DNA from: a virus
Reading direction: 5' to 3' (one strand)
Length of the DNA: 28,844 nt
IMG/VR virus record: IMGVR_UViG_3300046012_000105
Span: 1 to 28,844 of that record
In this document: in pieces, positions 179 through 28,807 of the stretch
Layout of the letters: each line of letters opens with the position of its first letter
How positions within the stretch are numbered: position 1 is the stretch's first letter
The notes under the pieces: model-generated
The model's database searches: none
What the model was told of the DNA's origin: nothing
What the model saw: only the letters and a program-made list of their open reading frames with translations
Made by a program: the position numbers and the translations under genes

Positions 179-3100
179 TCAGAAGGCTCCGAATCCCCAC
201 GCGCCCTCGAGCACGATGGCCGCGGCAGCACTGTTGGACGCTTCCTGCACCTCGCTGACGATAGTCGGCGCAGGCGATCCTGTCACGATGCCGTCCACGA
301 CTGTGACCGCCTCTCCGGTGAACGGCGCTAGGTCTGACAGGCTCGGGGGCTGACTCCACAGCGGCGCCTGCTGACCGCCTCCGCCTCCGCTCGAGGTCGT
401 GACCGAAACCGCGTTGCTGGCGCTCGACACGTTCCCGCTGGTGTCGATCGCCTTGACGGTGTAGGTGTAGGTCGTCACGGCGGTGAGGCCGCTGTCCACG
501 AAGCTGGTCACGCCCGCGCTGACAGTCCCGACGATGACCGATCCTCGCAGCACCTGGTAGCCCGCCACGTCGCTGTCGGGGCTGGCTGTCCATCTGAGGG
601 ATGCGGTGGTGTCAGAGACAGCGGTGGCCTGGAGGTTGGAGGGCGCAGCCGGAGGCGTCGTGTCCTGTGTGCCGCCGGCGCCGTCGAGGCGGATGTAGCG
701 CTTCCAGTCGGTGTCGCCGTTGACCTGGCCGAAGTCGCCGCCGATGTCGATCGAGCCGCTGACGGGATCCTGAGAGTAGAACCACAGCTTTAGCGGGTTG
801 CTCTCCCCCGAGGTCTGCTGGAAGCTGATCGTGTTATAGGCGACGGTGTCGGTAGTGGAGGAGCCCCACAGGAACAGGAACATGCCGTCCGAGGCGACAT
901 CTGATCCGGTGCTATAGGCGGTGTTCTTCTTCGGCATCACGAAATTGCCGTGATGTCCGAACGCCGCATAGTCGACGCCGTTGATCGACAGCTTCGCGCT
1001 GGCCTGCACGTTGCCGTCACACTCGGCGTACCAGTAGCCCTGTGTCGAGAAGGCGGAGAGGTTATTCGGCCCTCCGCCGTTCCAGTCGGTGCAGATCGCC
1101 GCTCCTCCGCCCTGGCCGAAGTCGCCGGTCTGAACGACGAAGTTGTCATCGACGGTGATCGAGAGGCAGTGCTGAGCGCCGCTCTCGCTCGGGAACTGGA
1201 AGCCCCAGGACATCGCCGCGCCGGTCACGCCGTTGAACGCCTGCAGCGCGTTGGGGATGTCGCCGCCGACGATGATCTTGCTGCCGTCGCTCTTGGCTCC
1301 GAGTCCCTTGCATGTGCCCGAGGCGATGCTGGCGGTGAACGCCGAGTCGACGCCCCACGTCCCGCCGCTCTTCACGATCCGGGCGACGCGCTTGTGGACA
1401 GCCGAGCCGCCGGCGCTCGTGAACGTGCCGACAGCCCATCCCCTGCTCGAGCCGTCCTGGATCACCATCCGCGTGACGATGCCGCCCGTGAACTGCAGGT
1501 CGGGGCTCGCTGCCTGCACGCTCGCAGCGGTCGTGTCTGTCGGGCCGCTCAGCGTGTTGAGGATCGCGAAGCCGTGGCGGGTCGAGCCGGCGATGGCCGA
1601 GAATGCGCCCCACACCGCCAGGGTGCCGTCGCTCAACAGCTGGCAGCCGCGGACGATGTCGTCGGGCGCCGGCGCATAGGTCTGGATGACCGCGCCTGTC
1701 GCCTTGTTGTACGCGGCGATCATCGGCGTGGTCGTCCTGTCGACAGAGCCGCCGCCGCTATGGTCGATCGTGTGGTCGCTCTCTCCGACGACGTACACCA
1801 CGCCGTTGCGCTCAGCCGCTCCCCACATCCGGCCGACATCGTTATTCGTGGATGTCCACGCCGAGCTGTAGAAACCAGGCGTGTCCGGGATCGGCGCGAG
1901 CGAGAAGCTGCCTCCGCTGGCCTGCGGCGTCGTCACGGCGACGGTGGTGGTGAACGCCGAACGGTTGCCGGCCGCATCGACGGCTCGCACCTCATAGTGG
2001 TACGTCGTAGCGGCGATCAGGCCCGAGTCGAGGAACGGCGAACTCGACGGGGAGGCGACCTGCGCGAACGCGACCGATCCGAGCGAGCGCCACACCTCAT
2101 AGTGATCAACGCCGACGTTATCTGTGGCGCCGCTCCAGTCGACCCTGGCCGAGCCTGGCCCTGTCGCCTGGCCCGCGATCGTCGTCGGCGCGGACGGCGC
2201 GGTGGTGTCGCTGCCTCCGCCTCCGCCTCCGCCGAAGTCCGAGTAGTAGCCCGAGAACTCAGAAGCGCTGGACAGATCCTGCATCGCCTGGAGGGCTGCC
2301 GCGCTCAGCGAAGCCGATTTCGTGCCGGTCGAGTTCGACCAGGCCACGTCGATATGGTCATCGTCCACCGAGCCGGTGTAGTTCCACAGGATCAGCGCTG
2401 AAGTCTCCTGGTACTTCGGCAGCAGGATGCTGGAGCGGAGCTCGGCCACCATCTGATCCTTCGTGACCTTCGGGCTGTTGTTTCCGCTCCACGCGCCATA
2501 TCCGTTCTCAGCGATCCCGAACGGCTTGGCGTGGCTGACAGCGAAGTTGTAGATGTCATCGACGTTGCCTGAGAACTGGTGGCGGTACAGGTCGAGCATG
2601 ATCCAGTCGACCACGTCATCGCCGGGGTAGTAGGTCAGCTTGTTGCCGTCCGGGTCGAACTGCGTAGGACACCAAACCCAGATCATGTTGTCGGCTCCAG
2701 CGGCCACAGCAAGGTCGTGCAGGTGGCGATAGGCCGCGATGTAGGCTGCCTGTCCCGCGCCGCCTGTGCCGCCCTGGTAACCGCCGTAGGCGCCCATCGC
2801 GGGAATGTTCATCTCCATCCACAGGTTGAAGAAGATCGGCGCGTCGATGGCTGCGATGGCAGCGAATGCGGCGGTGTAGGGGGCGTCATACCCGCCCGCG
2901 GTGATGATGTCGATCCCCTTGTAGGTGTGGCCTCCGCTCGACCAGCCGGTGGTGTTGCTGTACCCACCGCCGGCGGTCTTGACCGGGAATCCTGTGGCGC
3001 CCGAGCCCTGCGATCCGTGAGCGATGAAGTAGGCGACCTTCGGGCTGGTCAGCGCCGATGTCGAGCGGGCCAGCGCGTTCGGCCATGGGAACGTCCCGCC

Positions 3101-3307
3101 CTGGCCCGGGCCCTTTCCGCCTGGCCCGTTCCCGAACGGGAAATGCTCGCGCCGGATGGCCATGCGCCGGCCGAGCTCGCCTGAGGTCTCGATCCCGTTG
3201 GTGCCGGTGAAGTTGTGGTCATCGTCGGCGCCGAAGTAGACCTTCGGGGCAGGCGGGACAGCGAGGCGTCCGCCTGCCAGTAGCCGTCCAGCTGTGATCC
3301 TGCTCAC
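179..3307 (-). CDS. Tail protein with GH26-like glycoside hydrolase, FN3 and propeller-like domains
   Basis: This 1042-residue protein starts with GTG inside a GTGA overlap with the tape measure gene. Residues about 20-345 look like a GH26 (beta-mannanase type) TIM barrel: FFNLWMEMN gives a candidate acid/base Glu165, IWVWCPTQFDP and YYPGDDVVDWIMLDLY (227-241) are typical of the family, and FGIAENGYG gives a candidate nucleophile Glu267. A Gly linker (359-365) leads to an FN3 domain (368-460). Residues about 465-870 have repeated VVGES / GGD-type blades ending GGDFGQVNG, resembling a beta-propeller. A second FN3 domain follows (about 880-970), then a short Ig-like tail. No signal peptide is seen, as expected for a virion protein. 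The likely job is cutting or binding a mannose-containing surface polymer during adsorption. The His before the acid/base Glu in classical GH26 enzymes is Met here, so activity is not certain. Confidence 0.82.
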   Translation of the reverse strand: MSRITAGRLLAGGRLAVPPAPKVYFGADDDHNFTGTNGIETSGELGRRMAIRREHFPFGNGPGGKGPGQGGTFPWPNALARSTSALTSPKVAYFIAHGSQGSGATGFPVKTAGGGYSNTTGWSSGGHTYKGIDIITAGGYDAPYTAAFAAIAAIDAPIFFNLWMEMNIPAMGAYGGYQGGTGGAGQAAYIAAYRHLHDLAVAAGADNMIWVWCPTQFDPDGNKLTYYPGDDVVDWIMLDLYRHQFSGNVDDIYNFAVSHAKPFGIAENGYGAWSGNNSPKVTKDQMVAELRSSILLPKYQETSALILWNYTGSVDDDHIDVAWSNSTGTKSASLSAAALQAMQDLSSASEFSGYYSDFGGGGGGGSDTTAPSAPTTIAGQATGPGSARVDWSGATDNVGVDHYEVWRSLGSVAFAQVASPSSSPFLDSGLIAATTYHYEVRAVDAAGNRSAFTTTVAVTTPQASGGSFSLAPIPDTPGFYSSAWTSTNNDVGRMWGAAERNGVVYVVGESDHTIDHSGGGSVDRTTTPMIAAYNKATGAVIQTYAPAPDDIVRGCQLLSDGTLAVWGAFSAIAGSTRHGFAILNTLSGPTDTTAASVQAASPDLQFTGGIVTRMVIQDGSSRGWAVGTFTSAGGSAVHKRVARIVKSGGTWGVDSAFTASIASGTCKGLGAKSDGSKIIVGGDIPNALQAFNGVTGAAMSWGFQFPSESGAQHCLSITVDDNFVVQTGDFGQGGGAAICTDWNGGGPNNLSAFSTQGYWYAECDGNVQASAKLSINGVDYAAFGHHGNFVMPKKNTAYSTGSDVASDGMFLFLWGSSTTDTVAYNTISFQQTSGESNPLKLWFYSQDPVSGSIDIGGDFGQVNGDTDWKRYIRLDGAGGTQDTTPPAAPSNLQATAVSDTTASLRWTASPDSDVAGYQVLRGSVIVGTVSAGVTSFVDSGLTAVTTYTYTVKAIDTSGNVSSASNAVSVTTSSGGGGGQQAPLWSQPPSLSDLAPFTGEAVTVVDGIVTGSPAPTIVSEVQEASNSAAAAIVLEGAWGFGAF

Positions 3308-9789: not shown

Positions 9790-11673
9790 TCAGGCCGAGG
9801 CGAGCTCGATGCCGCCGTTGGCGCCGGAGGCCGTGATGGTCTCAGTGACCCACCAGCCCTCCTGGCCCGTGAAGGCCACGCCCTCGAACGACTCCGCGAA
9901 CGTCTGCATGTCGTTGGTGCTGTTGAGGGTGGAGTCCCGCACCACGCCGAGATCCATCTCGCCGCCGTCGAGGAACACGAAGCTTCCCTCGGGGAAGATC
10001 GCCCACTGGACGGCGGTCGGCATGACCGGGAAGGTGAACGGCGTCGTGCCGGTCGGAGCGGAGATCAGCTGGCCGGTGCCGGTGCTCGGGCTGTCGATGT
10101 AGTACGTCAGCCTGACGTTCGCCTGGTCGCGCAGGCGAGCGGTCATGTCGGCCCGCATCTTGAAGCGATCCTCCTCGCTCTTGGCGAGGTCGAGCATGAG
10201 CAGGTCGGGCAGCCACTGCGGCGCCAGGACGTTCAGCGCCAGGTTCGGGTCGCGGAACCGGCTGCGGAAGCTGAGCGCCGCGATCAGGATGCGGTTCAGC
10301 CACTGCGAGAACGCTCCGAGCGCAGCCGTCACGAAGTTCGTCGACGTGCCGGTGGTGCCGGTCGCCGCGCCCCATTCGCCGGTCAGCTGCGCCGCGGTCA
10401 CCGCGGTGAGCGCCGCCTTGATCTGGTCGAGGAGGACGGTCTCCGCGTACTCAGCGAAGGCGACAGCCAGGAGCCGCTGCCACTCGTCGATGAGCTCGGG
10501 GAACGTCCGCTGCAGCACGTTGCCGAAGGTCAGCGACCGGGAGATCATGTAGAAGTCGACCTCCGTCCAGCTCGGACAGGTCACCCGCTGGCTCGGCTTC
10601 GTGTACTGGTTGGCGACCCCGGAGGAATCCGCGGTCATCGTGATCTTCTTGAGCGCCTTGCCGGTCGTGTCGGTCGCGCCGGCGGTGAGGATGCTCGACA
10701 CCGGGATCGGCGGGACGAACCGGATGCCGCCGCGCTCAGCGTTGAACGTCGGCAGCGAATCCCGCACCGGCCGATCCGTCACCCCGTAGCTCTGGAGGTT
10801 GTAGCTCGGCTGGATGGGAGCGCACAGGCCGCCTGAGGCGACCAGCACCTCGGGCGCCAGGGCGTCGCGGATCTTGCGGGTGTTGTCGGCGTCGGCGCCT
10901 TCCCGCAGGATGCGGCTCTCCGGGTACTCCGCCCGGAGCGTTGCGATCGTGAACTTCTCGCCGTCGCCCTCGGTCGCCCGCTTGCCCCGGCCGCGGCCGC
11001 CCATGGCGAGCGAGCGGTTGATGCTGCGGGCCTTGCGGAAGAACGCCTCGCTGACGGCGGTCTCGGTCTGGAACTCCTGGCCGAGCGCGATGTTGTCGAG
11101 GTTGCTGGAGGCGACCAGCGTGTGCGGAACCTCGATCCCGTCCGCCTGTCCGGCGCGGCGGTCGTGGCTCGGGTTCGCGGCCGGCAGCGCGGCGCGGCGC
11201 CGGGCAGCTGCGGGCGTCGAGCGGCGGCGGGCGCTCGCGGCGATGGGCTCGGCCTCGGGCTCCTCCGCCGGCTCATCCGCGGCCTCGGGCTCGGCCGGCT
11301 CGTCCTCGGGGTCGCCTTCGCCCTCCGGGTCGCCCTCGCCGTCCTCGGGGTCGTCGCCGTCCGCCTCGGGCTCCATCGCCTGGCGCTGGCTGCGGATCCG
11401 CTCGAGGCGGGCCTGCTCCTCCGCCTCTTCGGCGGCTGCGGCCTCGCTGCGGCTGGACTGCTCCGCCATGATGCGCTGGCAGACGTCGGCGCCCTGTGCC
11501 ATCTGCGCTTCGACCTCTTCGGCCGACAGCTCGCCGATGGTCTCGGTCGTGCCGTTCTCGAGGTCGGACACGACAGCGTCGGCCGTGGCCTGGTAGTCGG
11601 CCAGCGTGCTGGCGAGCTCGTCGTCCGACATCGCGGCGATCTGCTCTGCGGTCAGGTTCGGGAACAGTTCCAT
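9790..11673 (-). CDS. Major capsid protein with fused scaffold-like N-terminus
   Basis: ATG at 11673 has an AGGAGAG site at good spacing and gives 627 residues; an ATG 30 bases further up lacks one. Residues 1-100 are mostly helical (NLTAEQIAAMSDDELASTL), 101-143 are a run of Glu, Asp, Pro and Gly, and about 145-175 are Arg/Ala-rich. This resembles the scaffolding (delta) part of HK97-type capsid proteins, normally removed by the maturation protease. The shell domain begins near 215: GGLCAPIQPSYNLQSYGVTD, a RPVRDSLPTF segment, GGIRFVPPI, a T-loop-like YTKPSQRVTCPSWTEVDFY and, further on, FAEYAETVLLDQIKAAL. No separate scaffold gene is seen upstream, which agrees with the fusion. Confidence 0.85.
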   Translation of the reverse strand: MELFPNLTAEQIAAMSDDELASTLADYQATADAVVSDLENGTTETIGELSAEEVEAQMAQGADVCQRIMAEQSSRSEAAAAEEAEEQARLERIRSQRQAMEPEADGDDPEDGEGDPEGEGDPEDEPAEPEAADEPAEEPEAEPIAASARRRSTPAAARRRAALPAANPSHDRRAGQADGIEVPHTLVASSNLDNIALGQEFQTETAVSEAFFRKARSINRSLAMGGRGRGKRATEGDGEKFTIATLRAEYPESRILREGADADNTRKIRDALAPEVLVASGGLCAPIQPSYNLQSYGVTDRPVRDSLPTFNAERGGIRFVPPIPVSSILTAGATDTTGKALKKITMTADSSGVANQYTKPSQRVTCPSWTEVDFYMISRSLTFGNVLQRTFPELIDEWQRLLAVAFAEYAETVLLDQIKAALTAVTAAQLTGEWGAATGTTGTSTNFVTAALGAFSQWLNRILIAALSFRSRFRDPNLALNVLAPQWLPDLLMLDLAKSEEDRFKMRADMTARLRDQANVRLTYYIDSPSTGTGQLISAPTGTTPFTFPVMPTAVQWAIFPEGSFVFLDGGEMDLGVVRDSTLNSTNDMQTFAESFEGVAFTGQEGWWVTETITASGANGGIELASA

Positions 11674-11714
11674 CTCGGGCTCTCCTCGCGGAAGGGATCT
11701 CACACCTATGCCGC

Positions 11715-11789: not shown

Positions 11790-12143
11790 CTACTGGATGC
11801 GCGGCTTGCGGACGGTGAACATGCCCTCGTCCTGGCCTACGATCGTGCCTGAGGATTCCCACCGCCAGTACCAGCGGCCGGGGGTGGTGGCCAGGACGCG
11901 GCCTTCGCGCTGGCCGATGGTGCCGCCTGCGGGCGAGTCGATCGTGATGTCCTGCGGGCTGGTGTCCGTCGGGCCTTTCACCTTCAGATGGATGATGCTC
12001 GGGGAGTCCTCTGTGTAGCCGTCCGGCGCATTCGGATCCTGAGGCTCGCTCGGAGTCTTGAGGCGATACACCGTCGTCCGGATCACGATCTCATCTCCGA
12101 CATCGAATAGCTGTGTCGTGGTGTCGATGGGTGGCCCGGTCAT
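11790..12143 (-). CDS. Ig-like beta-sandwich virion protein
   Basis: This protein of 117 residues starts at ATG 12143 in an ATGA overlap with the repeat-protein gene. The pattern is that of small phage proteins with one Ig-like beta-sandwich: LFDVGDEIVIRTTVYR, then SPSIIHLKVKGP, TPGRWYWRWESSGTIVGQ and EGMFTV near the C-terminus. Such proteins occur beside capsid or head-completion genes and are often decoration or fibre-base proteins. Its place between repeat protein and major capsid supports a capsid-surface role, though this is an inference. Confidence 0.6.
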   Translation of the reverse strand: MTGPPIDTTTQLFDVGDEIVIRTTVYRLKTPSEPQDPNAPDGYTEDSPSIIHLKVKGPTDTSPQDITIDSPAGGTIGQREGRVLATTPGRWYWRWESSGTIVGQDEGMFTVRKPRIQ

Positions 12144-14290
12144 GAGAGAACGCTAACAGACTCGACGGCGGCGGCGACTGTCGTGTGGAACACCGCGGCG
12201 CTCCTCACGACGCTCTGCAGGACGGTCGCCGGCGCGACCACCACGAAGAACACGCCCGGAGCGTTATCGGAGATCACGAAGGCGGTATCGGTGCCCTGGC
12301 CAGCATCCGCAGCGATGATCGCGACGATCACTGGCAGCGCCGCGTCGGAGCCGACAGCCTCATCGGCGCCGAAGATGAAGATCCGGAAGGTGGCGGTGTC
12401 CACGCCTCCGCCTTCGTCCGAGCTGGCCAGGGCGGCGCTGAGCACAGAGGCGTCGGCGCCATGTGCAGAGTCGATCAGGACGCGCTTGAGGCCGGTCTGC
12501 TCCTGGCCGTGCGCGGCGTCGATGGCGATGATGCCCGCTCGGGCGGTGCTGCTGTCGACAGCGGTGGCGAGATCCTGAGCGGCGAGGCGGATGTGGACGG
12601 TCGCTGTGTCGTTTCCCACGGCGGCGTCGGTCACGCTCGAGCGGGCGCGGAGCAGGCTCGCGTCGGTGACAGCTGCGGCGTCGTGCATGACGGGCGGCTG
12701 TGCGTGCACCGCGGCACTGTCGGCGCCTGCGGCCGAGTCGCCGGCGGTGAGTCGAGCCCGAGGAGTCGCCACATCGGATCCGCTGCCCGCGTCGGTGGCG
12801 CTCTTGGACTGGTCGCCGCTGTCGGTCGAGATGCTGCTGTCATCCGATCCTGTGGCGCTGTCTGAGGCTGTGAGGCGGACATGGAGGCTGGATGAGTCGC
12901 TGCCCTGGCCAGAGTCGTGAAGGGCGCGAGAAGCCCGCTCAGCGCCTGATCCGCTGTCGCTGCCTGTTACCCGAGCGCGGAGCGTGGAGGCGTCCGCGCC
13001 GTGGGCGCTGTCAGAGGCGTGCAACCCCTTGTCGCTCGCCTCCACTCCAGTCGCGGCGTCAGTGCCGGTCGCCCGAGCGTGGAGCGCGGCCGTGTCAGCC
13101 GCTGCCGCCGCGTCGGATGCGGCCTGCCTGACACGCACCACGGCGGTGTCGCTGCCGTGGCCGCTGTCGGTGCCGGTGACGCGTGGCCGAACGGTCGCCT
13201 GCTCCGATCCCACAGCCGTGTCGGCTCGGGGCAGAGAGGCGTGGAGCGTGGACGCGTCGGCTGCCGCGCCGGCGTCGCTGCGCCGTTGGATCACCTTGCT
13301 GCTGTCGGCTCCTGTCGCACTGTCCGACCGTGCCAAGGCGGCGCGGAGGATCGACGCATCAGCGCCATGGCCGCTATCGGATCCTTTGTGAACGACCTTG
13401 CTGGCGTCGGTGCCCACAGCCGAGTCCGCCGCGGCGATCCGCGGCCGGACGGTGGAGGCGTCGGCTCCTGTGGCGCTATCCGCTCGCGCCTGCGCCGCGT
13501 GGAGCGTCGACGCGTCCGATCCTATGGCGCTGTCGGTGCGGGAAGGCTTGGCCTTCAGCGTCGACGCGTCCGAGCCCGCTGCGGAGTCGGTGCCTGACTT
13601 CGACGTAGTAGCGGGCTGCTCAGGCACATAGATCAGCAACTCGCTGTGGTCGTTCGTGGTGTCGGTGAAGCTGTATCCACCGCCAAAGTTCGACACGCCG
13701 TCCGCGGTCAGGATCCCCCACGCGGCGACACCATGCAGGAAGTTGGACGTGCCACCCACCCGATCCATGATCTCGGTGGATGTGTTGCCGCTAGGCGTAC
13801 CTGTCACCGTGTTGGCGGGCACGACATGAGCCGAGGCGTAGAGCATGAACACCTGGCCCGCCGGCGGGATGAGCGTCATGGTCAGCGGATTGCCGGAGCC
13901 CGCGCTGTTTCCGATCGAGTTGGCGCCCAGGTTCTGAGAGAGGAGCAGGCCAGGCACGCCGATCGCGACGTAGTCCTTCCGCGATGTCGAGCCATTCCCG
14001 AAGCCGAGGGTCAGGCTTGAGCCTGACGGCAGGCCGGCGGGGAGCGGGACACGCACGACGGACACGCTGTTGGGGTTCGTCGTGCTGTCCCGAGAGTAGA
14101 ACTCCGCCGCCGCGTCGTTGCCGGTGCCTGAGATCGAGTCGACGTGAGAGGCCGCTCCGAGCCTCTGCGCCACCGCGACCACCAGCGAATCTCCAGCCGC
14201 GATAGCGGCCGTCGTGGTGATCGTCAGGCTGGCGCTATTCGTCTGGCTGTTGTTCTGAGCGACGACCGTATAGGGCGTTCCGATCGGCAT
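12140..14290 (-). CDS. Repeat-rich virion protein (about 25 units of 18 residues)
   Basis: This protein of 716 residues starts at ATG 14290 behind AGGAGG. Residues 1-225 form a beta-rich globular part (SLTITTTAAIAAGDSLVVAV, LLSQNLGANSIGNSAG, HSELLIYVPEQ). From about 234 to 675 the chain is a run of about 25 units with consensus D(S/A)A-x-G-(A/S)-D-(A/S)-S-x-(L/V)-x-(A/R)-R, mostly 18 residues and sometimes 14-19. The last units become hydrophobic, and the end (about 676-716) is a Val/Ala-rich tail. Regular Asp-x-x-Gly-x-Asp spacing could suit a beta-solenoid or a fibrous rod, possibly calcium-binding. It lies between head genes, so a capsid fibre or decoration protein is a reasonable guess. 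No family is recognised for the repeat part. Confidence 0.75.
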   Translation of the reverse strand: MPIGTPYTVVAQNNSQTNSASLTITTTAAIAAGDSLVVAVAQRLGAASHVDSISGTGNDAAAEFYSRDSTTNPNSVSVVRVPLPAGLPSGSSLTLGFGNGSTSRKDYVAIGVPGLLLSQNLGANSIGNSAGSGNPLTMTLIPPAGQVFMLYASAHVVPANTVTGTPSGNTSTEIMDRVGGTSNFLHGVAAWGILTADGVSNFGGGYSFTDTTNDHSELLIYVPEQPATTSKSGTDSAAGSDASTLKAKPSRTDSAIGSDASTLHAAQARADSATGADASTVRPRIAAADSAVGTDASKVVHKGSDSGHGADASILRAALARSDSATGADSSKVIQRRSDAGAAADASTLHASLPRADTAVGSEQATVRPRVTGTDSGHGSDTAVVRVRQAASDAAAAADTAALHARATGTDAATGVEASDKGLHASDSAHGADASTLRARVTGSDSGSGAERASRALHDSGQGSDSSSLHVRLTASDSATGSDDSSISTDSGDQSKSATDAGSGSDVATPRARLTAGDSAAGADSAAVHAQPPVMHDAAAVTDASLLRARSSVTDAAVGNDTATVHIRLAAQDLATAVDSSTARAGIIAIDAAHGQEQTGLKRVLIDSAHGADASVLSAALASSDEGGGVDTATFRIFIFGADEAVGSDAALPVIVAIIAADAGQGTDTAFVISDNAPGVFFVVVAPATVLQSVVRSAAVFHTTVAAAVESVSVLS
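12266..13591 (-). repeat. Coding tandem repeat, about 54 bp units
   Basis: The DNA for residues 234-675 of the 716-residue protein is a degenerate tandem repeat with period near 54 bp (18 codons), about 25 copies. The copies have diverged at third positions and in length (42-69 bp), so it is an old coding repeat kept for protein structure, not a recent expansion. It has no spacer/repeat identity and is not a CRISPR array. Confidence 0.7.
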
Positions 14291-14324: not shown

Positions 14325-14948
14325 TCAGGTGATCGTGACGGCGCCGCTGAGCGTCCACGTGCCGGTCGCCTTGGTGCCCAGGCTCTCGACCTTGCGGTTG
14401 AACAGCGGAGCGGCGACGGTCGTGCCGTTGGCGGTGCCGGCATCCACGCCCCACTCGTTCCAGGCGAAGTTCGCCTCGCCCGTCGCGAAGTCGCTCTGCC
14501 AGGTCACGACCTGGCCAGACCTGCTCGGGAACGTAGCGTTCATCACCTTGAACTGGCGGTGCGTGCCGCCAGCGATGGCAGCAAGATCGGTGTCGGTCGC
14601 CGCGGCAGCGGTCGTGCCGTCGCCCACACCCACACGGCTGTGTGTCGCGTCGAGCGCCTGTCCGCCAGCAGCGATCAGCAGATCCTCCATCCGCTGGATA
14701 CCCGCGTTGGTCAGCAGGTTGCCCTCCACGAACCGCTCCCCGAGATCCGGGTTGCCGATGAGCTTTCGCAGCAGGGCGCTGGACACGCCCTCGCCGCGCA
14801 GCAGTCCCTCGCGCCGACGCACGAACTCGCAGGCGTCCTCGCTCCACTTCTCGAGATGCCAGCGGAACTGCCAGCGGGCAAAGTCGATGGCCGGGATCTG
14901 AGCAGCGACTGCGGCGCCGTCCGTTCCCACGCTGATGTCGTGGCTCAT
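14325..14948 (-). CDS. Phage virion protein, probable capsid-associated or fibre-type
   Basis: ATG at 14948 follows GAGGAGAG and gives 207 residues. N-terminal helices (FARWQFRWHLEKWSEDACEF) are followed by LLTNAGIQRMEDLLIAAGG, VGVGDGTTAAAATDTDLAA, then FKVMNATFPSRSGQV and FAWNEWGVDAG, ending FNRKVESLGTKATGTWTLS. This whole block is a recurrent pattern in tailed-phage proteins found near capsid genes and in some fibre N-termini; the function is not established. Beta-rich ends and position between the protease and repeat protein suggest a virion component. Confidence 0.6.
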   Translation of the reverse strand: MSHDISVGTDGAAVAAQIPAIDFARWQFRWHLEKWSEDACEFVRRREGLLRGEGVSSALLRKLIGNPDLGERFVEGNLLTNAGIQRMEDLLIAAGGQALDATHSRVGVGDGTTAAAATDTDLAAIAGGTHRQFKVMNATFPSRSGQVVTWQSDFATGEANFAWNEWGVDAGTANGTTVAAPLFNRKVESLGTKATGTWTLSGAVTIT

Positions 14949-14958
14949 GGCTCTCTCC

Positions 14959-16557
14959 TCACTCGGTCGCGGAGCCTGCGGGCTCCATCTGGCGCCGCAG
15001 GTCTCGCGGCGTGCTCGGGGTCATGCGGGCTCGGGCCAGGCGTGCCCTGGCGGATGGGGTCAGGTCGCTGCGCTTGGGCTCCCACACACCGACCCACTCG
15101 CGCAGCTCAAGGTCGCCTCCGGCGGAGGCCACAACCGCGGTCGGCTCGGTGATCGGGAAACCTGGATAGTTCACGGCAAGCACGGCGATGAGCTCGGTGT
15201 GTCCGCCGGCGGGCCTCCAGTCGCCCGAGCACTTCGCGCCGCGGATCTCTCGCGCCTCCGCAGCGGTGACGGTCGAACGCAAAGCGCCCGCCATCGCGAT
15301 CCCATACTCGTCCCGATAGAGGCAGATGTCGGCGGCGACACGGCCGCTGTCCTCGTACATGTCTCGGACGAGCGCGACATCGCGGATCTGCGGGTCGACG
15401 TGGCTCGTCCCGAACGTCAGCGAGCCAGCCCGCACGCGATCTCCGCCTTCGCAGACGACATCATGCAGGTGGAAGTAGCGGTAGTTGCTGCGGCTCTCCG
15501 GCATCTGCACACACCGATCGGGGTAGCCGAGGTGGCATGTGCCCGCCAGGGCGACGTAGCCCCACACGCGGCCGTCGTCCTCCACGTTGATCGACACGAG
15601 CCTGTCGGCGTCCTCCAGCATGTCCTGCGGGTAGTCGAACCACGCTGCGGGAGGCTCGACAGGCGCGAAGCCTGCTGGCGCCAGCGGAGCGGCAGCTGCG
15701 GCTGCGGCGGTGATGGTGCGCGGCAGGCGGATCGTGCCGGCGGCGCTGGCCTGAGCCGCGGGGAAGGCGTGCTCCTGCGCCTCGCCGTCGATGGTGACGG
15801 TGATCCCGCCGTCGATGCCGGGATACTCGGCCACCATCTCATCGACCGCATCATTGATCTCGGACACCTGCGCGTCGGTCGCGGTCCCGCCGTCGTCGCC
15901 CGATCCGCCGTCGCCTGGAGGCGGCGTGTCGCCGCTGGCGTAGCTGGCTGCCGTCACGGCGTCGGCGCTCGCATCGCCGCGCCGCACGCCCGTGATCCGT
16001 GCTCCGCCGAAGGCGGCGAACGGGACGATCGTGGCGCCCATGATCTCGTAGCGGGTGAAGCGCAGGTACTCGTCGTCGGTCGAGAACTTGATCACGATCT
16101 CGCCGTTCTCGTCCTCGCCCTCGAACAGGCTATCCCACATCTCCTCCTCAGCTGCGGCGTTGATGTGGAGCTCGACATCCTGCGCGACAGGATCGACGCT
16201 CACGCCGTACAGATCCTCGGACTCGAGCAGGGCGATGGTCTGCTCCGCCTCGGGCGTCGAGTTGAAACTGCCCGATCCCTTCACGGTCAGGCCGTCCAGC
16301 GAGATGCTGCTGATCTGTCCGACGCTGTGAGACACCGGGCCGTCCATGTAGCCGTGGCTGTCGGTCGTCATCGACATGAGCGGCAGAGGCAGAGGCCGGT
16401 GCGAGAAGCCGTCCGCGGCCAGCTCGCGGCCGTCAGGCGTCCGAGTGTCCAGGAAGCACAGATCGGCGTCGAATTCCACGCGCTGCTCGCCTGTCAGAGA
16501 GCCGTCTGCGGCTGCTAGCACCACGCGGCGCAGAGCCGTAATGCGAGGGATGATCAC
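14959..16557 (-). CDS. Capsid maturation (prohead) protease with long C-terminal part
   Basis: GTG at 16557, with a GGGGAG site six bases upstream, gives 532 residues. The N-terminal 190 residues fit the HK97-gp4-type serine protease: a candidate catalytic His68 in DSHGYMDGPVSHSVGQI, a candidate Ser120 in LYGVSVDP, and the family-typical FTRYEIMGATIVPFAAF (167-183). An Asp/Gly linker (about 207-230) leads to a region of about 300 residues with a HLGYPDRCVQMP and YRYFHLHDVVCEGG segment, ICLYRDEYGIAMAGALR and a Cys in GAKCSGDW. This extra part is seen in large actinophage proteases but has no known domain by eye; the low-complexity Ala run (288-300) separates it. It should process the fused scaffold of the capsid protein. 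Confidence 0.8.
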   Translation of the reverse strand: MIIPRITALRRVVLAAADGSLTGEQRVEFDADLCFLDTRTPDGRELAADGFSHRPLPLPLMSMTTDSHGYMDGPVSHSVGQISSISLDGLTVKGSGSFNSTPEAEQTIALLESEDLYGVSVDPVAQDVELHINAAAEEEMWDSLFEGEDENGEIVIKFSTDDEYLRFTRYEIMGATIVPFAAFGGARITGVRRGDASADAVTAASYASGDTPPPGDGGSGDDGGTATDAQVSEINDAVDEMVAEYPGIDGGITVTIDGEAQEHAFPAAQASAAGTIRLPRTITAAAAAAAPLAPAGFAPVEPPAAWFDYPQDMLEDADRLVSINVEDDGRVWGYVALAGTCHLGYPDRCVQMPESRSNYRYFHLHDVVCEGGDRVRAGSLTFGTSHVDPQIRDVALVRDMYEDSGRVAADICLYRDEYGIAMAGALRSTVTAAEAREIRGAKCSGDWRPAGGHTELIAVLAVNYPGFPITEPTAVVASAGGDLELREWVGVWEPKRSDLTPSARARLARARMTPSTPRDLRRQMEPAGSATE

Positions 16558-16658: not shown

Positions 16659-17090
16659 ATGCCTATGGTTCACATCGCTTACGTAGCCGGCCTCATCGAC
16701 GGAGAGGGCACAATCACCATCGCGCGGCAGCGCCGCGGCTCCAGCCCTACCTGGCGCTACCAGCCACGGCTCCTCGTCGTGAACACAGACCTGCGATTGA
16801 TCGAGGCGGTGCGGCATGCGCTCAATGTCGGCATCGTGTACCAGTCGAAGGCTGATCGTACCGGAGCGATCCCGGCCAACTGGAATCCCGTGCACCGCTT
16901 CCAGGCGACAGCTCAGCAGGCCATCTACGCTCTCAAGATTGTCCGGCCTTACTTGATCGCAAAGGCGGAGCATGCCGATATCGTGCTAGACATGCCCACG
17001 CGATCGAAGAATCACCGAGACACGAGCGCTGTCGCCGGCCAGGTCGCGGCGTTTGAGGCCATCGCTCGGCTGAACCGCCGTGGCCGCTGA
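16659..17090 (+). CDS. LAGLIDADG-type homing endonuclease (free-standing)
   Basis: The only plus-strand gene, 143 residues. The core motif is YVAGLIDGEGTITIARQRRG (residues 8-27), an AGLIDGEG version of LAGLIDADG with the acidic active-site residue present. It is followed by LLVVNTDLRLIEAVRHAL, VHRFQATAQQAIYALKIV and RPYLIAKAEHADIVLDM, in the usual order for this family of one-motif enzymes that act as dimers. A weak ribosome site precedes ATG 16659; ATG 16665 is in frame too. It runs convergent to the minor head gene and overlaps its last 105 bases. Such genes spread by cutting alleles that lack them; the target is probably the neighbouring head-gene sequence, but this is not shown here. Confidence 0.85.
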   Translation: MPMVHIAYVAGLIDGEGTITIARQRRGSSPTWRYQPRLLVVNTDLRLIEAVRHALNVGIVYQSKADRTGAIPANWNPVHRFQATAQQAIYALKIVRPYLIAKAEHADIVLDMPTRSKNHRDTSAVAGQVAAFEAIARLNRRGR

Positions 17091-17957
17091 GCGGCCAGCC
17101 TCCCATAACGCCGGATCGCCAGTGATGTCCTCCTGAGTCGGCACGCCATCCTCGCCCTCAGGGCGATCCGTATACAGTAAAACGCACCGACAGTTGATGA
17201 CCTCCTCCGCTGGCCCTGCCGGATCGCCAGGGTAGAGGAGGCGATACCCGCCGACATCGAACGACTGCGCCTCGCCTGTCGGGACTGTCTGGCCGGACAC
17301 CGCGGCGTGGCTCGGCCGTGTCCTGCCGTCGACGGTCGCCAGCCATTGCTTATACGGCACTGCGCCGGTCATGATCGCGGCGGCGTGCTGCGCCCCGTTC
17401 TTCGCGCTGATCATCTCGGTGCGGACGATGCGCTCGCTGCGGATAGCCGACATGGCACGGACGTTCGCTCGCAGCTTCCGAGCTGTCTCCTGGATGCTGT
17501 CGCCGGCGTCATAGCCCTCCTGGATGATCTCCATGATCTCGCGGCGCTGCTCCTCCGCGATGCTGGTGATCTTCATGCCCATCTGCTCGAGCACGCCGGC
17601 CAGGAGCGGGTCGCTGAGGTTCCATGCGATGCCGGCCGCGTCGAGCGGCGGTGCTGCCTGTGCTCCGACCGCATCTGACCGCGGCTGGTAGCTGCGCTGC
17701 GAGATCGCGTGTACGGCGGAGTCGAGCGGGTAGACCTCATCCGCGTCTGGCTGGCTGAAGCTCGGCTTGGGCTGCGGGTCATCCGCGCTCGCCACAAGCG
17801 ACTGCGCGTACCGCTCGAAGCGCGTAGCCGCATCCAAGCCGAGCTCGCGCAGCACCGAACTGTATGCCCTCCGCAGGCGCGGCTCAACCTCGTCCGCAGC
17901 ATCTGCGCCGACGGCGACATGCCGGCGGAACTGCGCGGCTGTCAGACCTCCCGCCAC
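16986..17957 (-). CDS. Minor head / head morphogenesis protein (Mu F, SPP1 gp7 type)
   Basis: With GTG at 17957 the protein has 323 residues. GTG at 18005 (339 residues) is possible but would overlap the upstream gene by 64 bases. A helical N-terminus is followed by the family signature in the last third: SERIVRTEMISAKNGAQ, KQWLATVDGRTRPSHAAVSG, FDVGGYRLLYPGDP and a Cys pair in EEVINCRCVLLY. Such proteins enter the prohead with the portal and help assembly or DNA ejection. The last 50 residues after the Cys pair lie over the homing endonuclease gene, so this C-terminus may have been altered by its insertion. Downstream a 428-base gap with no other minus gene precedes the protease. Confidence 0.82.
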   Translation of the reverse strand: MAGGLTAAQFRRHVAVGADAADEVEPRLRRAYSSVLRELGLDAATRFERYAQSLVASADDPQPKPSFSQPDADEVYPLDSAVHAISQRSYQPRSDAVGAQAAPPLDAAGIAWNLSDPLLAGVLEQMGMKITSIAEEQRREIMEIIQEGYDAGDSIQETARKLRANVRAMSAIRSERIVRTEMISAKNGAQHAAAIMTGAVPYKQWLATVDGRTRPSHAAVSGQTVPTGEAQSFDVGGYRLLYPGDPAGPAEEVINCRCVLLYTDRPEGEDGVPTQEDITGDPALWEAGRSAATAVQPSDGLKRRDLAGDSARVSVILRSRGHV

Positions 17958-18220
17958 TGTCCACGCTCGAGGTAGCCGTGCCAGGTCTGCTCGACGCCAG
18001 CCCACCGAGCGGTGACGAGGATCGACGGCGACACTGTGATCGTGCCGTCGTCATGCTCGACCACCTGGTGGTTGGAGAGGTTGCCGGACAGGCGCCGCGG
18101 CCCGTCGCCAGGGCAGCGGGCATACCAGACGCCGTCGCGCAGGCCGTAGTCGCCTGGCTCATACTCGTGGGCCTCGAGGTCGTGGACACGGCGTCCGGGC
18201 GTGACATCGCCGGCGCTCAC
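17942..18220 (-). CDS. Small protein, possible DUF6527-like
   Basis: GTG at 18220 in a GTGA overlap with the portal stop gives 92 residues. Segments GLRDGVWYARCPGDG, GTITVSPSILVTARW and a WHGYLERGQW end have a layout seen in small phage proteins of the DUF6527 kind (a sheet carrying a short SPSI motif), but Cys residues are fewer. The assignment is a pattern resemblance only. It sits between portal and minor head genes, coupled to both, so it may aid procapsid assembly or DNA handling. Confidence 0.6.
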   Translation of the reverse strand: MSAGDVTPGRRVHDLEAHEYEPGDYGLRDGVWYARCPGDGPRRLSGNLSNHQVVEHDDGTITVSPSILVTARWAGVEQTWHGYLERGQWREV

Positions 18221-20235
18221 GACCAGTACACCTCCGCGGGCAGGTCTTCGGGGTCGGCGTCGAACAGGGTCTCAGCGGCGTGCCGCTCGATCGTGGCGCA
18301 CAGGCCGGCGACGGCGGCGGCGTTCCAGCCATGATGCTGCAACTGGCGGCTCAGCGTCTCTGTCCCGCCGTCGACCAACTCGGCCAGGTTCCGCTTCGGC
18401 ATGATCTCGCTCACGGTGTCGACGCCGACGAACGCGGCGAGGCCATCCTTCGGCACGTTGCGGCAGTCGGTGCACGGGTAGCGGCTCTGCCTCATCGCTT
18501 GAGCGATCCTGGTGCCCGCCAGGGCGCGGCTCTGCACCATCGCCATCCGAGCCATGCCGAGCACTTCCTGAGCGCTCAGAGCGCCCTGAGGCTGGTCCGC
18601 TTCGGGCGGTGGCGCCTCGGTGGTCTCGCTCGGCTGGTCGCCGGCGTCGGAGACATCCTCCTCGGGGTCGTCGCCGGTCGGCGGAGCGGCGCTGGTATCG
18701 CCAGCCGCCGCGATCCTGGCGACAGCGAGGAGCACCCGCGGGTTGTTGTTCGGGTTCTCCTCGGTCGGCTGGTCGTCGTCGTCGAAATCGAGCGAGTCGC
18801 GCAGAGACTTGTCTGAGATCGCGCCGCGGTCGTGGGCGTCCTTCGCGTCGGCTGCCCTGTCCGGGTTGCCCACCACGCGCTCGGCCGAGTACCACAGCAC
18901 GAACCGCTTCTCGTCCACCGCCGCGGCGGTGCCATCCTCGAGGCGAGTGGCGCGGATCGCAGGCCACAGGTAGGTCGTCGTCAGATCCCTCACCATGCGC
19001 TCCGCGACCGGCTGGCCGTATGCCTGCCACGCCTTGCGATCCACCAGCCATCCCGTCCAGTGGTTCACATCCCCGAGTCCCTTTAGCTCCTCCGGCGGCA
19101 TGTCGACGCCCATGGCGAAACGGTCGATAGCTTCCATGCGCCGTGCCGATCCGGCGTAGTCCTTCTGAGCGCCGGAGAAATCGATGAACTTGATGTTCGT
19201 TGCCTGGTCGCCAGGGCCGCGCAGGATGACCGGGACGTAGCTCGACACGTGGCCCTCGGTGCGGATGCTCGCGATCATGTGCCGCGTGATCTGCCTCATC
19301 ACCGGGTCGCTGTCGGGATCCTCATCCGGCAGCGGCGTGTCGTCCTCGTCGTCGCTCGGGGGATCCAATAGCTCCTCGGGGAGGTACAGCAGGCCGCCGC
19401 GGGCGATGCGGCTGCGGGCCGTCGCCCGCGTGTCAGCGGCGAGCAGGATCAACTCCTCGCACATGTCCATGACGCGGCGCAGCGGCGCGTCAGGGTCGCC
19501 CGAGTTGCGAGGGTGCGGAGTCCAGACGCGCCACAGCAGGCACTGGCCCGCCTCAGGCGCCGCCGGATTCGCGATCGTCAGCTTCTCCTCCTCGCTCTTC
19601 TTGCCGCCGCGGAACCGCTGGCGCGTAACCTCCACGCCCTGCTGCACCGCGCCGTTGACCGATGTCTGAGTCCGCCTCAAGCCGATCTCGACGTTGGACA
19701 GGAACTCCCACCGCTCGAGCAGGTCTCCGCCGGCGAGCGGATTCGGGTTGAACGTGCAGATCAGGTAGCCGTCGCCTGACACGAACATGACCTGGCCATA
19801 CTTCTGCTGGAGCTCGCTGCGGCCACCGCCTGGATCCTGCACGCGCTCCCACGCCTCGAGGATCTGCTGTGCGCCGGCGATGGCCTCACCGCCGCTCGGG
19901 TTGCCCTCCGAGTCGTAGGTGATCGTCGCAGGGTCGAGCAGGTCAGGCGTCAGCGGCACCGGCTCGGCGTCAGGATCGTTCGGGTCGGTGACGCCCACCC
20001 ACACCACCAGCTTGCTGAGCATCCGCCCGTAGAACTGGCTGGCGAAGCCCGCCTCGGGCACCAGATCGTAGTAGTCCCATACGCGGATGTCGGCCTCATG
20101 GCCGCGGCGGTGGACATCGGGCAGCTGGTCGCTTCCGATCTGCGCCGCAGACGCGGCCATGGCGCGGCCCTCCAGCCGGCTGCGAGCCCGCAGATGCGCT
20201 CGAGGGTCGCGCCGCGGTGCGAAGGGGATCTTCAC
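18217..20235 (-). CDS. Portal protein
   Basis: GTG at 20235, overlapping the preceding stop as GTGA, gives 672 residues. The open frame continues 73 codons upstream, but that part is Arg/Gly/Gln-rich and lies over two small genes. Typical portal segments are DYYDLVPEAGFASQFYGRML, VMFVSGDGYLICTFNPNPLA, AQKDYAGSARRMEAIDRFAM and GVDMPPEELKGLGDVNHWTG, close to the actinophage portal family. The acidic Pro/Glu-rich insert after DDDDQPTEENPNNN (about residue 530 on) and the C-terminal Cys pair (YPCTDCRNVP) are extra features. Twelve copies should form the ring through which DNA is packaged. It follows the terminase and small genes, as expected. Confidence 0.85.
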   Translation of the reverse strand: MKIPFAPRRDPRAHLRARSRLEGRAMAASAAQIGSDQLPDVHRRGHEADIRVWDYYDLVPEAGFASQFYGRMLSKLVVWVGVTDPNDPDAEPVPLTPDLLDPATITYDSEGNPSGGEAIAGAQQILEAWERVQDPGGGRSELQQKYGQVMFVSGDGYLICTFNPNPLAGGDLLERWEFLSNVEIGLRRTQTSVNGAVQQGVEVTRQRFRGGKKSEEEKLTIANPAAPEAGQCLLWRVWTPHPRNSGDPDAPLRRVMDMCEELILLAADTRATARSRIARGGLLYLPEELLDPPSDDEDDTPLPDEDPDSDPVMRQITRHMIASIRTEGHVSSYVPVILRGPGDQATNIKFIDFSGAQKDYAGSARRMEAIDRFAMGVDMPPEELKGLGDVNHWTGWLVDRKAWQAYGQPVAERMVRDLTTTYLWPAIRATRLEDGTAAAVDEKRFVLWYSAERVVGNPDRAADAKDAHDRGAISDKSLRDSLDFDDDDQPTEENPNNNPRVLLAVARIAAAGDTSAAPPTGDDPEEDVSDAGDQPSETTEAPPPEADQPQGALSAQEVLGMARMAMVQSRALAGTRIAQAMRQSRYPCTDCRNVPKDGLAAFVGVDTVSEIMPKRNLAELVDGGTETLSRQLQHHGWNAAAVAGLCATIERHAAETLFDADPEDLPAEVYWS

Positions 20236-20420
20236 TCGGCCGTGCTGACCTCGACCCGGAGGCCGTTCGCGGCGGCCACCTCGTTGATCAGGTCGGAGGC
20301 GAGTTCCGGGCCGAGGTCTGCCGCGGCGATGCTCTGCGCCGACTGGCCCGGAGCGTCGATGCTGATCCGTGTCCTGCCGTCGTCGCCTACCGGGAGGCTG
20401 AGTGTCCTGTCGGCGCTCAT
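20232..20420 (-). CDS. Small hypothetical protein before portal
   Basis: ATG at 20420 in an ATGA overlap with the preceding gene gives 62 residues, ending in the GTGA overlap with the portal gene. The sequence (LSLPVGDDGRTRISIDAPG, then IAAADLGPELASDLINEVAA) shows one beta pair and one amphipathic helix. No family is recognised. Its coupling on both sides suggests it is made in step with the portal. Confidence 0.65.
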   Translation of the reverse strand: MSADRTLSLPVGDDGRTRISIDAPGQSAQSIAAADLGPELASDLINEVAAANGLRVEVSTAE

Positions 20421-20593
20421 GCCTGCTGCCTCGCCCTTGGCAGCGGCGACGCATTCACGCGAATACGCTCCGCTCGGGGGGCTTCCTGCCGCGTGTTCTG
20501 CAAGCGCCCGCTGGTCCCTGATGTCGCCGGCGTCCGAGGCGTGCTCGGAGCGAGCCTGGCCGGCGCCGCTGATCCTCCACAGTTGCAGCCCAT
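20417..20593 (-). CDS. Small CNC-motif protein
   Basis: ATG at 20593 behind AGGAGG, just after the upstream stop, gives 58 residues starting MGCNCGGSAAPARL; the rest is Pro/Thr/Arg-rich without clear structure. Such N-terminal CNCG proteins are common near phage terminase and portal genes; their role is not known. The frame ends in an ATGA overlap, which supports real coding. The Cys pair could bind a metal or a lipid. Confidence 0.65.
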   Translation of the reverse strand: MGCNCGGSAAPARLAPSTPRTPATSGTSGRLQNTRQEAPRAERIRVNASPLPRARQQA

Positions 20594-21546: not shown

Positions 21547-21836
21547 CACATGCCGTCCTCTCGCAGGCTCATCCGGCGGCGCATTTCCGAGCGGTGGCGT
21601 CCCTGGATTCCTGGCGACACCTGGCCCTCGGGCGCTCGCCACGCGTCGGGCACCTGCTCGAGCAGCGCCGCCACAGCCTGCTCTCGGGCGCGTGGCCTGC
21701 CCCACGCCCACGCCGATACCTGTATGCCGGTCTCGACATGCGTAGCGGTGCACTGCCATTCGGTGCGCTCATGCGGCGTGCCGTCCGCGCCGTCGACCGC
21801 GACTCGCTCCGACACATAGGCGAGGTCGACGGTCAT
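21546..21836 (-). CDS. Small hypothetical protein after terminase
   Basis: ATG at 21836 in an ATGA overlap with the terminase stop gives 96 residues. The first half is beta-like (LAYVSERVAVDGADGTPHER, WQCTATHVETGIQVSAWAWG), the second helical (REQAVAALLEQVPDAW) and basic (HRSEMRRRMSLRED). It is not recognised. Coupling to the terminase suggests it may act in packaging. Confidence 0.65.
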   Translation of the reverse strand: MTVDLAYVSERVAVDGADGTPHERTEWQCTATHVETGIQVSAWAWGRPRAREQAVAALLEQVPDAWRAPEGQVSPGIQGRHRSEMRRRMSLREDGM

Positions 21837-23239
21837 CTCTGCACCGCCGTGAGGCCACGCGTGTCGGATGTCCGGCCGCGGGGATGGTTCACCCGCGTCC
21901 TGCCGCCTCCGCGCTGCAGGATCGTGTACCCGCCTGACAGGGCGTCGACCACGTCATCATGGCCGGTCGAACCCTCAGCGGAGAAACGGCGAAGCTGAGT
22001 CTCGATCAGCTTCTTATGGGGGATGCTGGCCAGGAACCGCAGCGTCCCGTTCTCGAGCGCGGCAGCTGCGCCCTCAGCCCTGTCGGCCTTGTCGCCGGTC
22101 TCCACACGCCCCTTCACGATCGAGCCTGTCAGCGCCTTGGCGAGGTTGTAGAGCTGGTCCTTCCCTGCCTGGCCGGGATCCTGAGCGAACCACTGGTGCA
22201 CACGCCGGCCGTCGCGCCTGGCTGTGCGCTTCAGGATGTCCTGTGTGCGGCCAGGGCCGTACCGGAACGCCTCACAGTCGGTGACGGTGAACAAGCCGTC
22301 AGCTGAGCGCTCCATCAACAGGCCGATCGTCCAGTCGGGGTCTCGGCGTTCGACGCTCACCTCGGTCGCGGCGAGATCCCACCTGCGGATGCGGCGCACC
22401 GCCGGCGGAGCCTTGTCCACCCACCGGATGCGATCCATGGTGAAGAAGTCGCCGTCATCCTCCACATCCCAGTCGCCCTCCAGCATCTGCTCTCGGACAG
22501 CGCCGCGCATCCCCGAGAGGCCGGCGATGTAGCTGGCCTGATCGAGATACGGGTTGTCGGCGATCCTGGCTGGCAGGTAGATGGCGTCGGGCTCTCGCGT
22601 GTCAGGCTCGACGTAGAGGCTCTTCACCCACTCATGGCCACGACCGCCAGGGTTAGACGCGGCTCGCCGGCGCAGCGGGACATCGGCCAGCGTCAGGCCG
22701 TCCGCGCTGGCCTGGAGCCTGCTCGAGGGCGCCGGCCTGCGGAGACACTTCTTCACGAAATCCCATTGGTACTCCTCGAAATGCGTTAGCTCGTCGCCGC
22801 CGACGAACTGGCCCTCGAAGCCCTGGTAGCGGCGGTGGCTCTCGCGGTGCTGCATGTGGCCGAACTGCAGCTTCGCTCCACTCGGGAACGTCCAGCGGTG
22901 CTCATCGCCGCGCCAGTACGCGTCGGTCGAGTCGAGCAGGTCGTGGCTCTGCTCGATCAGTCCGCCATCCATGGTGAGCTCGCCGTAGGTGCGCCTGAGC
23001 AGGAGAGAGCCGTAGCCTGGCACGTCGCTGTACTGGAGCGCGGCCATCAGCAGGGCGATGCTCTTGCCTCCGCCGGCGGCGCCTCCATAGAACGCGTCGT
23101 AGCAGTCGAGCCACAGGAAGGCGAGCTGTCGGGCGCTCGGAATGAGCGGGCAGTAGCGGAGGCGTGGCGGGTGGAACTGCGCCAGGAGGCGGGCCTTCTC
23201 CGCGTCGGCCTGTACCTGTGGATCCGCGATGTCGAGCAT
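21833..23239 (-). CDS. terL: Terminase large subunit
   Basis: This 468-residue protein cuts and pumps phage DNA. The ATPase part carries an adenine-binding-type segment (IPSARQLAFLWLDCYDAFYG), Walker A GGAAGGGKS (52-60, Lys59), and Walker B-like FVGGDELTHF (145-154) with Asp149-Glu150. The nuclease part has RRWDLAATE (286-293) with Asp288, a VTDCEAFRYG strand, and HDDVVDAL near the C-terminus. Length and motif order are typical. ATG 23239 has no Shine-Dalgarno site; instead a TAGAAT box lies eight bases upstream, which may mean a leaderless message. The small-subunit candidate is 2.7 kb away. Confidence 0.9.
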   Translation of the reverse strand: MLDIADPQVQADAEKARLLAQFHPPRLRYCPLIPSARQLAFLWLDCYDAFYGGAAGGGKSIALLMAALQYSDVPGYGSLLLRRTYGELTMDGGLIEQSHDLLDSTDAYWRGDEHRWTFPSGAKLQFGHMQHRESHRRYQGFEGQFVGGDELTHFEEYQWDFVKKCLRRPAPSSRLQASADGLTLADVPLRRRAASNPGGRGHEWVKSLYVEPDTREPDAIYLPARIADNPYLDQASYIAGLSGMRGAVREQMLEGDWDVEDDGDFFTMDRIRWVDKAPPAVRRIRRWDLAATEVSVERRDPDWTIGLLMERSADGLFTVTDCEAFRYGPGRTQDILKRTARRDGRRVHQWFAQDPGQAGKDQLYNLAKALTGSIVKGRVETGDKADRAEGAAAALENGTLRFLASIPHKKLIETQLRRFSAEGSTGHDDVVDALSGGYTILQRGGGRTRVNHPRGRTSDTRGLTAVQR

Positions 23240-25990: not shown

Positions 25991-26742
25991 GTGTCGCCGC
26001 CTTGCGCCAGGGCGCCGCTCTCCTCCAACGCCCGCCACGCCTCAGCCGCCTTCGCCGCATCCTCGAGCAGCGAGCCAGGCTTCCCGCTCGCCGGCGCGTT
26101 CGACACCTCCACATGCTCAGTCGACAGGCCACGCGCCAACCGCTCAGCCTGGATGACCTGCGGCAGCACCTTCGCAGCCTGGATCGCCAAGCGGAACACC
26201 TCAGCGTCGCCCATGTCCGCAAACGGATCCGCATCCTCGCCGCGGCCACGCGCCTGCTTCTCCAGCTTCTGCAAACGCCGCAGAAACATCTCCGCCGGCC
26301 TGCTCAGAGTCGCCGTATGCGCCCCGAGCACCGACGCGTGACGCTTCGCCATCTGCAACAGCTCGGTCTTCTGCTCCTCCCGCTTCTGCCGGTCAAGCTC
26401 GGCCCACCACGCGCCAGCCCTGTCGAGCCAGCGGTGGCGCGAGCTCCAGCCCTCCAGCTGGCTGATGCTCGGCGGGCGCGGCGGCTTGGCTCGTTCGCCA
26501 GGGCGGACGACTCTGAGTTGCCTACCCCCCTTCCGCTCCCGTGCTGTGCCTCGTTTGCGGCCTGGCCCGATCCGTTTGGCGTCTTCGATGCGTTCGGTGT
26601 GGATGAGGTCTCGGACTGCGCTGAGGGAGGCGTTCATTGGGCCGAGGTCTCGGTAGAGCGAGAAGGCGTGGTATGCCTCGGGGCTCTCGCTCTCCTGTTG
26701 TTCCCATGGCATCGGTGGGTTGGGGGGAAGCTGATCACTCAT
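25987..26742 (-). CDS. terS: Terminase small subunit candidate
   Basis: ATG at 26742, overlapping the cytosine methyltransferase stop by eight bases, gives 251 residues. The start PWEQQESESPEAYHAFSLYR and LGPMNASLSAVRDLIH resemble the N-terminus of actinophage small terminase proteins. Residues about 93-135 (SISQLEGWSSRHRWLDRAGA, then WWAELDRQKREEQ) form helices of DNA-binding type. A basic Lys/Arg-rich insert (55-90) divides the two. The C-terminal half is helical with LSRPAEMFLRRLQKLEKQAR. The role would be recognition of the packaging site. Distance from terL (2.7 kb) is unusual. Confidence 0.7.
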   Translation of the reverse strand: MSDQLPPNPPMPWEQQESESPEAYHAFSLYRDLGPMNASLSAVRDLIHTERIEDAKRIGPGRKRGTARERKGGRQLRVVRPGERAKPPRPPSISQLEGWSSRHRWLDRAGAWWAELDRQKREEQKTELLQMAKRHASVLGAHTATLSRPAEMFLRRLQKLEKQARGRGEDADPFADMGDAEVFRLAIQAAKVLPQVIQAERLARGLSTEHVEVSNAPASGKPGSLLEDAAKAAEAWRALEESGALAQGGDT

Positions 26743-28652: not shown

Positions 28653-28807
28653 GGCTTGACCTGCACCGGCTGGCTCGACATGGAGCACAGCGCCTTCTTC
28701 ATCAGCGGCTGGTAGTGGCCGGCGAAACAGCCGCCCCGTGTCGGCACGTAGTTATGGCACTCGGGACATCGGATCGTCGTCGCCTGCCGCACCTGCCTGT
28801 CAGGCAT
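28649..28807 (-). CDS. Small zinc-ribbon protein
   Basis: ATG at 28807 gives 52 residues: an IRCPECHNYVPTRGGCFAGH segment with a Cys pair and further Cys/His, then helical residues (LMKKALCSMSSQ). It ends in a GTGA overlap with the methyltransferase. Role unknown, and it resembles other tiny zinc ribbons in this window. Confidence 0.65.
   Translation of the reverse strand: MPDRQVRQATTIRCPECHNYVPTRGGCFAGHYQPLMKKALCSMSSQPVQVKP

Follow-up and report, generated by a model that had tools for sequence, protein, structure and literature searches.

The question raised by this locus is what a protein built largely of a short Asp/Gly repeat does among the head genes of a virus. The window, which is the entire 28,844-base record and may be a fragment of a larger genome, comes from a virus whose hosts are probably actinobacteria. 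The repeat protein (P0001, 716 aa) is the product of an intact minus-strand open reading frame (positions 12140-14290). The plus-strand frame is interrupted by stops, and the GC3 of the gene (0.82, in a record with 68 % GC) matches the expectation for a coding frame. A non-repetitive head of approximately 228 aa is followed by a 25-unit array and a short C-terminal tail (Table 1).

Table 1. Features of the late operon and parts of the repeat protein, in window coordinates
Feature	Coordinates	Strand	Context or basis
Terminase	21833-23239		Late operon
Portal	18217-20454		Late operon
Mu-F-like morphogenesis protein	16986-18005		Late operon
Protease-type gene	14959-16557		Late operon
Fibre-connector-like protein, 207 aa, directly upstream of the repeat gene in the operon	14325-14948	-	AlphaFold model, fold matches, linkage to arrays
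Repeat protein, N-terminal head (residues 1-228), without repeats; proposed binding tip	13607-14290	-	Translation; analogy
Repeat protein, 25-unit Asp/Gly array (residues 235-679); proposed stalk	12254-13588	-	Unit list, conservation, arrays of this repeat type in other phages
Repeat protein, C-terminal tail (residues 680-716 and stop codon), short, hydrophobic; proposed connector-facing side	12140-12253	-	Translation; role inferred only
117-aa protein, 4-nt overlap with the stop of the repeat gene	11790-12143	-	Coordinates; no family match
Major capsid protein	9790-11703	-	

The first-pass annotation had described about 25 divergent 18-residue units behind a beta-rich head, in a gene lying between those for the protease and the major capsid protein, and this description holds. 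The 25 units have a modal spacing of 18 residues (range 14-23) and the consensus D-[SA]-[AG]-x-G-x-[DE]-[AS]-[SA]-x-[LV], with D at position 1, A or G at position 3 and D or E at position 7 in 25/25 units, and G at position 5 in 21/25. Shuffled sequences fall far below this regularity. Self-identity at a lag of 18 is 0.256 in the repeat region and 0.114 +/- 0.015 after shuffling (z 9.7), and the longest regular chain of motifs is 13 units, compared with at most three in 2000 shuffles. The composition of the head makes a beta-rich structure plausible.

Along the direction of transcription, the late operon reads terminase, portal, Mu-F-like, protease-type, 207-aa, repeat, 117-aa and major capsid genes, then the tail genes, so the 207-aa and 117-aa genes share the interval with the repeat gene. 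All three lie in a protease-capsid gap of 3255 nt, whereas the median gap in 69 relatives of the capsid family is 168 nt, with one tenth of the relatives above 2.6 kb. Neither a gene of the 207-aa type nor a repeat-array gene is present in the capsid-family relatives. Given the long gap and the absence of both genes from these relatives, the 207-aa and 716-aa gene pair looks like a module inserted at the protease-capsid junction. The 117-aa protein, which had no match in family searches and no clear relative near other arrays, may or may not be part of it.

Several other genes in the window have unusual features. In the major capsid protein, an acidic low-complexity stretch precedes the capsid fold, and the DNA there contains 12-18-bp tandem repeats (11189-11362). 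A 1042-aa tail protein (179-3307, minus strand) has a partial GH26 match (residues 189-266, 3e-7) as well as FN3 and central-tail-fibre-J matches, and is possibly a tail tip protein with a sugar-cleaving domain. The Pfam match of an N6_N4 DNA methylase (27333-28688, minus strand) is in two stretches, covering 296 residues for 181 profile positions, with an insert of about 100 aa. A 159-aa ORF (26735-27214, minus strand) matches only positions 5-97 of the 324-position C5 DNA methylase profile and, judged by this match, is a truncated or split gene.

The repeat protein has no match in Pfam or NCBIfam and no significant match in PHROG or among PDB sequences. The array is not covered by any match from these four libraries, and the head matches no family, PDB or phage sequence. 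Two PDB sequence matches, one to a multiheme cytochrome and the other to a LIM-domain chain with TETVEATEVAEA repeats, were rejected as compositional because they do not include the GxGxD core. In phages, tblastn recovered nothing with the full protein (1e-5) or with the head (E 10), and scans of viral_contigs with the whole repeat protein, its head or the capsid protein alone found nothing. However, when the first half of the array was compared with cultured phages by tblastn, weak but consistent matches were found in 211 records (190 from Mycobacterium phages; best listed E 7e-6). The listed matches fall in minor tail proteins or hypothetical genes, and each of seven matched phage proteins that were inspected contains approximately 6-8 units of this shape. 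The same search with one clean array from another locus (L079) gave nothing at 0.001. The earlier claim that the repeat belongs to no described family thus stands as far as PDB sequences and the Pfam, NCBIfam and PHROG libraries are concerned, but the repeat is not confined to this virus. Searches of the open literature, which did not cover most subscription papers, found no description of the repeat, and for the left genome end a survey of Rhodococcus phages mentions nothing beyond a tail protein. Neither the repeat family nor its linkage to the neighbouring gene (see below) appears to have been described in the libraries searched or in the open literature.

Arrays related to this one are probably those of actinophage minor tail proteins in phrog_416 (Mycobacterium phages Butters gp22 and Muddy gp25; Gordonia phage Nadeem gp27), in which some 6-8 units of 17-20 residues, with the motif D-[ST]-G-x-G-x-D, follow one another in tandem. 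The repeat shape is common to both, and common descent seems likely from the sequences. However, in the phrog_416 proteins the array is followed by a Gly_rich_2 domain at the C-terminus, found in 4/4 of the inspected proteins that were tested and assigned to phrog_416, whereas the repeat protein has 25 units and no Gly_rich_2 or other Pfam match. It also does not match the phrog_416 profile at E 0.1, while true members reach E 1e-76 or better.

A profile of two units from the repeat protein detects 7/7 of the tail proteins, yet some reversed sequences score equally high because the repeat motif is nearly palindromic. Profile scores against the tail proteins were therefore set aside as evidence, and linkage and controls were relied on instead. 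With a profile built only from the arrays of other phages, the repeat protein scores 134 bits forward, 93 reversed and at most -8.4 shuffled, and the forward score exceeds the reversed score in 6/7 tail proteins.

The 207-aa neighbour is more informative. Its AlphaFold model, made with 57 family members, has a pLDDT of 89.7 and a pTM of 0.82, and the sole good PDB match in Foldseek is a chain of the HFTV1 tail (E 3e-4). Against predicted viral structures, the matches are tail fibre and tail-collar fibre proteins and many uncharacterised proteins. VIA-align Z scores are 9.5 for the HFTV1 tail chain, 8.0 for the phi812 arm segment, 7.7 for A511 gp105, 6.2 for the GP4 fibre/fibre-tail-adaptor entry, 6.0 for a T4 baseplate chain, 5.5 for phiKZ gp139 and 4.2 for a Klebsiella phage baseplate chain, with unrelated chains at 2.8 or below. 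The fold shared with the four highest-scoring chains, taken here as fibre connectors, spans 106-134 residues of the protein. In A511, gp105 is the proximal part of the tail fibres, through which the receptor-binding proteins attach (PMC11406892), and the fibres of HFTV1 are anchored by the baseplate hub (PMC12494034). The set of structural relatives is coherent and, as modelled, the 207-aa protein looks like a phage fibre connector, though a common fold is no proof of its function. The A511, phi812 and GP4 proteins have other fibre partners and share the fold without sequence similarity at E 1, and the family profile of the 207-aa protein does not match any PDB sequence at that threshold. Sequence relatives were found in the Rhodococcus phages REQ1, Shagrat and Madraxi and in phages SP-15 and LIS04.

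The three Rhodococcus phages have the same gene pairing (REQ1 orf62 and orf64; Shagrat gp3, gp4 and gp5; Madraxi gp5 and gp8). The 207-aa relative lies within a few genes of large proteins in which an N-terminal domain precedes a D/E-x5-D/E array and a short tail. The pair differs from that in the window in lying before the terminase gene, and its repeat proteins, annotated as hypothetical, have other N-terminal domains and basic C-terminal tails. As array proteins were near connector relatives in these three phages, linkage was tested across IMG/VR. A scan with the 207-aa family alone gave 235 relatives; the best 80 served as loci, and arrays were located with a profile-free motif detector at a threshold of at least six units (shuffled ORFs, three rounds, gave at most four). 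Arrays were found in 36 of these 80 loci (37 ORFs), always on the strand of the connector relative (37/37) and at a median distance of 96 nt, with 19/37 within 100 nt. Among 80 control loci anchored on the major capsid family of this phage (1.26 Mb), none had an array of this length or a relative of the 207-aa protein; at a threshold of five units, the control contains three arrays. The difference (36/80 and 0/80) has a Fisher p of 1.7e-13, to be read with caution because near-duplicate loci are included (66 of the connector sequences are distinct, 29 of these with arrays). The 44/80 loci without an array at the six-unit threshold, partly owing to contig ends, indicate that the connector can occur without one. 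In genome contigs, arrays of at least five units were found in 7/36 loci, from assemblies labelled Nocardioides, Deltaproteobacteria, Dehalococcoidia, Brocadiaceae and Methanodesulfokora. The occurrence of the same gene pair in many unrelated tailed viruses suggests a widespread, undescribed kind of host-gripping fibre.

Most of the related array proteins have a layout of N-terminal domain, array and short end, which is that of tip, stalk and anchor. The Pfam domains N-terminal to arrays are Laminin_G_3 (L089 and L095) and BNR_4 (L095), and the other N-terminal domains have no Pfam family. From these assignments, the domains ahead of the arrays appear to be interchangeable and some of them lectin-like. 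The heads of seven related array proteins constitute one family; the head of the repeat protein at first looked similar to these by eye, but the relationship was rejected as hmmsearch and hhalign found no link. Because this head matches that of no other array protein, it is proposed as a tip by analogy only.

Most related array proteins end in a short non-repetitive C-terminal tail. In three others (L049:10893-13646, L085:7288-8934 and L091:12346-15294), the array of D-repeats is followed by long non-repetitive baseplate- or fibre-like sequence in the same protein, a hint that arrays may be on tails. In two further proteins (L071:7748-9856 and L070:7570-9879), the stretch before the array resembles a parallel beta-helix by eye, the former having no Pfam match. 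The module or its connector lies between portal and scaffold genes in L047, between portal and protease-type genes in L056 and between capsid and tail genes in L067, where a glycosyltransferase-like gene (L067:7182-8696) has the capsid gene on one side and the connector gene on the other. As module position varies in this way across phages, it is a weak guide to the site on the virion.

On balance, we think it probable that the 716-aa and 207-aa proteins together make a two-gene virion adhesion fibre with the repeats as its stalk. The 207-aa connector would dock the fibre on the virion and the 716-aa protein would be the fibre itself, its 25 Asp/Gly repeats forming an extended stalk. The N-terminal 228 or so residues would be the outer binding tip, perhaps for sugars on the host surface, and the short C-terminus would face the connector. 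Both proteins are expected in virions, and the gene pair may be a mobile module, here placed between the protease and capsid genes. Support for an adhesion fibre or rod comes from the gene for a fibre connector that is linked to the repeat gene, the lectin-like domains before equivalent arrays and the related arrays in annotated minor tail proteins. Counting against it are the lack of a sequence link between this head and the others, the loci without arrays and the repeat model, which is not trustworthy. This model of six repeats has about two strands per unit and a pLDDT of only 52, and gave no fold match in Foldseek.

The annotation had suggested a long capsid fibre or an environment-binding decoration, of which the fibre part is retained, while its capsid part draws on gene position. 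A fibre or decoration on the head, binding host surfaces or environmental polymers, would agree with the repeat gene lying between protease and major capsid genes and with the modules of L047 and L056, which are also in the head-gene region; for a tail fibre this placement is unusual. However, the repeat protein matches no known head fibre or decoration family in Pfam, PHROG or NCBIfam, the connector relative of SP-15 and LIS04 is within a baseplate cluster, and the Rhodococcus pair precedes the terminase gene. As the structural relatives of the connector are tail and baseplate parts, attachment at the tail or baseplate is more likely, and we regard a capsid site as unlikely. A linker or spacer of Ala/Ser/Gly/Asp that is flexible and for the most part unstructured, with function in the head alone, would account for the low-complexity composition of the array, the low confidence of the repeat model and the reversed sequences that equal forward scores. 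It is difficult to reconcile with fixed positions retained through 25 divergent units or with the wide gap between native and shuffled scores under the profile from other phages, and we consider it improbable.

The form of the stalk, for which the annotation had suggested a calcium-binding solenoid or rod, can be considered separately. RTX repeats carry GxGxD, and 18 residues would equal one coil. A calcium-dependent beta-roll of this type, with one GxGxD half-turn per 18-residue coil and a metal-stiffened rod, would be compatible with the two-gene fibre as a detail of its stalk. The D-x-G-x-G-x-D core includes GxGxD and the acids at positions 1 and 7 are invariant in the repeat protein. However, each 18-residue unit contains a single core, related arrays have E instead of D at 20-28 % of sites, and the Hemolysin_CaBind profile does not match the repeat protein (E 0.1) or ten related proteins (0.05), making an RTX-type roll doubtful. 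By the membership tests made, which concern sequence, the repeat protein falls outside both phrog_416 and RTX.

Adaptor-plus-fibre systems are already known, and most likely the two-gene fibre proposed here works like them, with a repeat stalk that is not among the described families. More speculatively, and with considerable doubt, this could be one case of an adhesion module widespread in tailed viruses (actinophages, assembly contigs of Chloroflexi and Proteobacteria, and a few archaeal contigs). It would combine a standard connector, a stalk with an undescribed metal-dependent repeat fold and interchangeable lectin-like N-terminal tips, reversed relative to the C-terminal tips of classical fibres, and could be mounted near the head or on the tail. 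Fibres determine which cells a phage binds, yet when their genes are not at the usual tail-gene positions they are often left annotated as hypothetical proteins. With the recognisable repeat, the fold and its dependence on metal can be tested on a short construct, and the stalk repeat with its connector gene provides a sequence handle for finding adhesion fibres, and the swappable tips they carry, in many uncultured phages.
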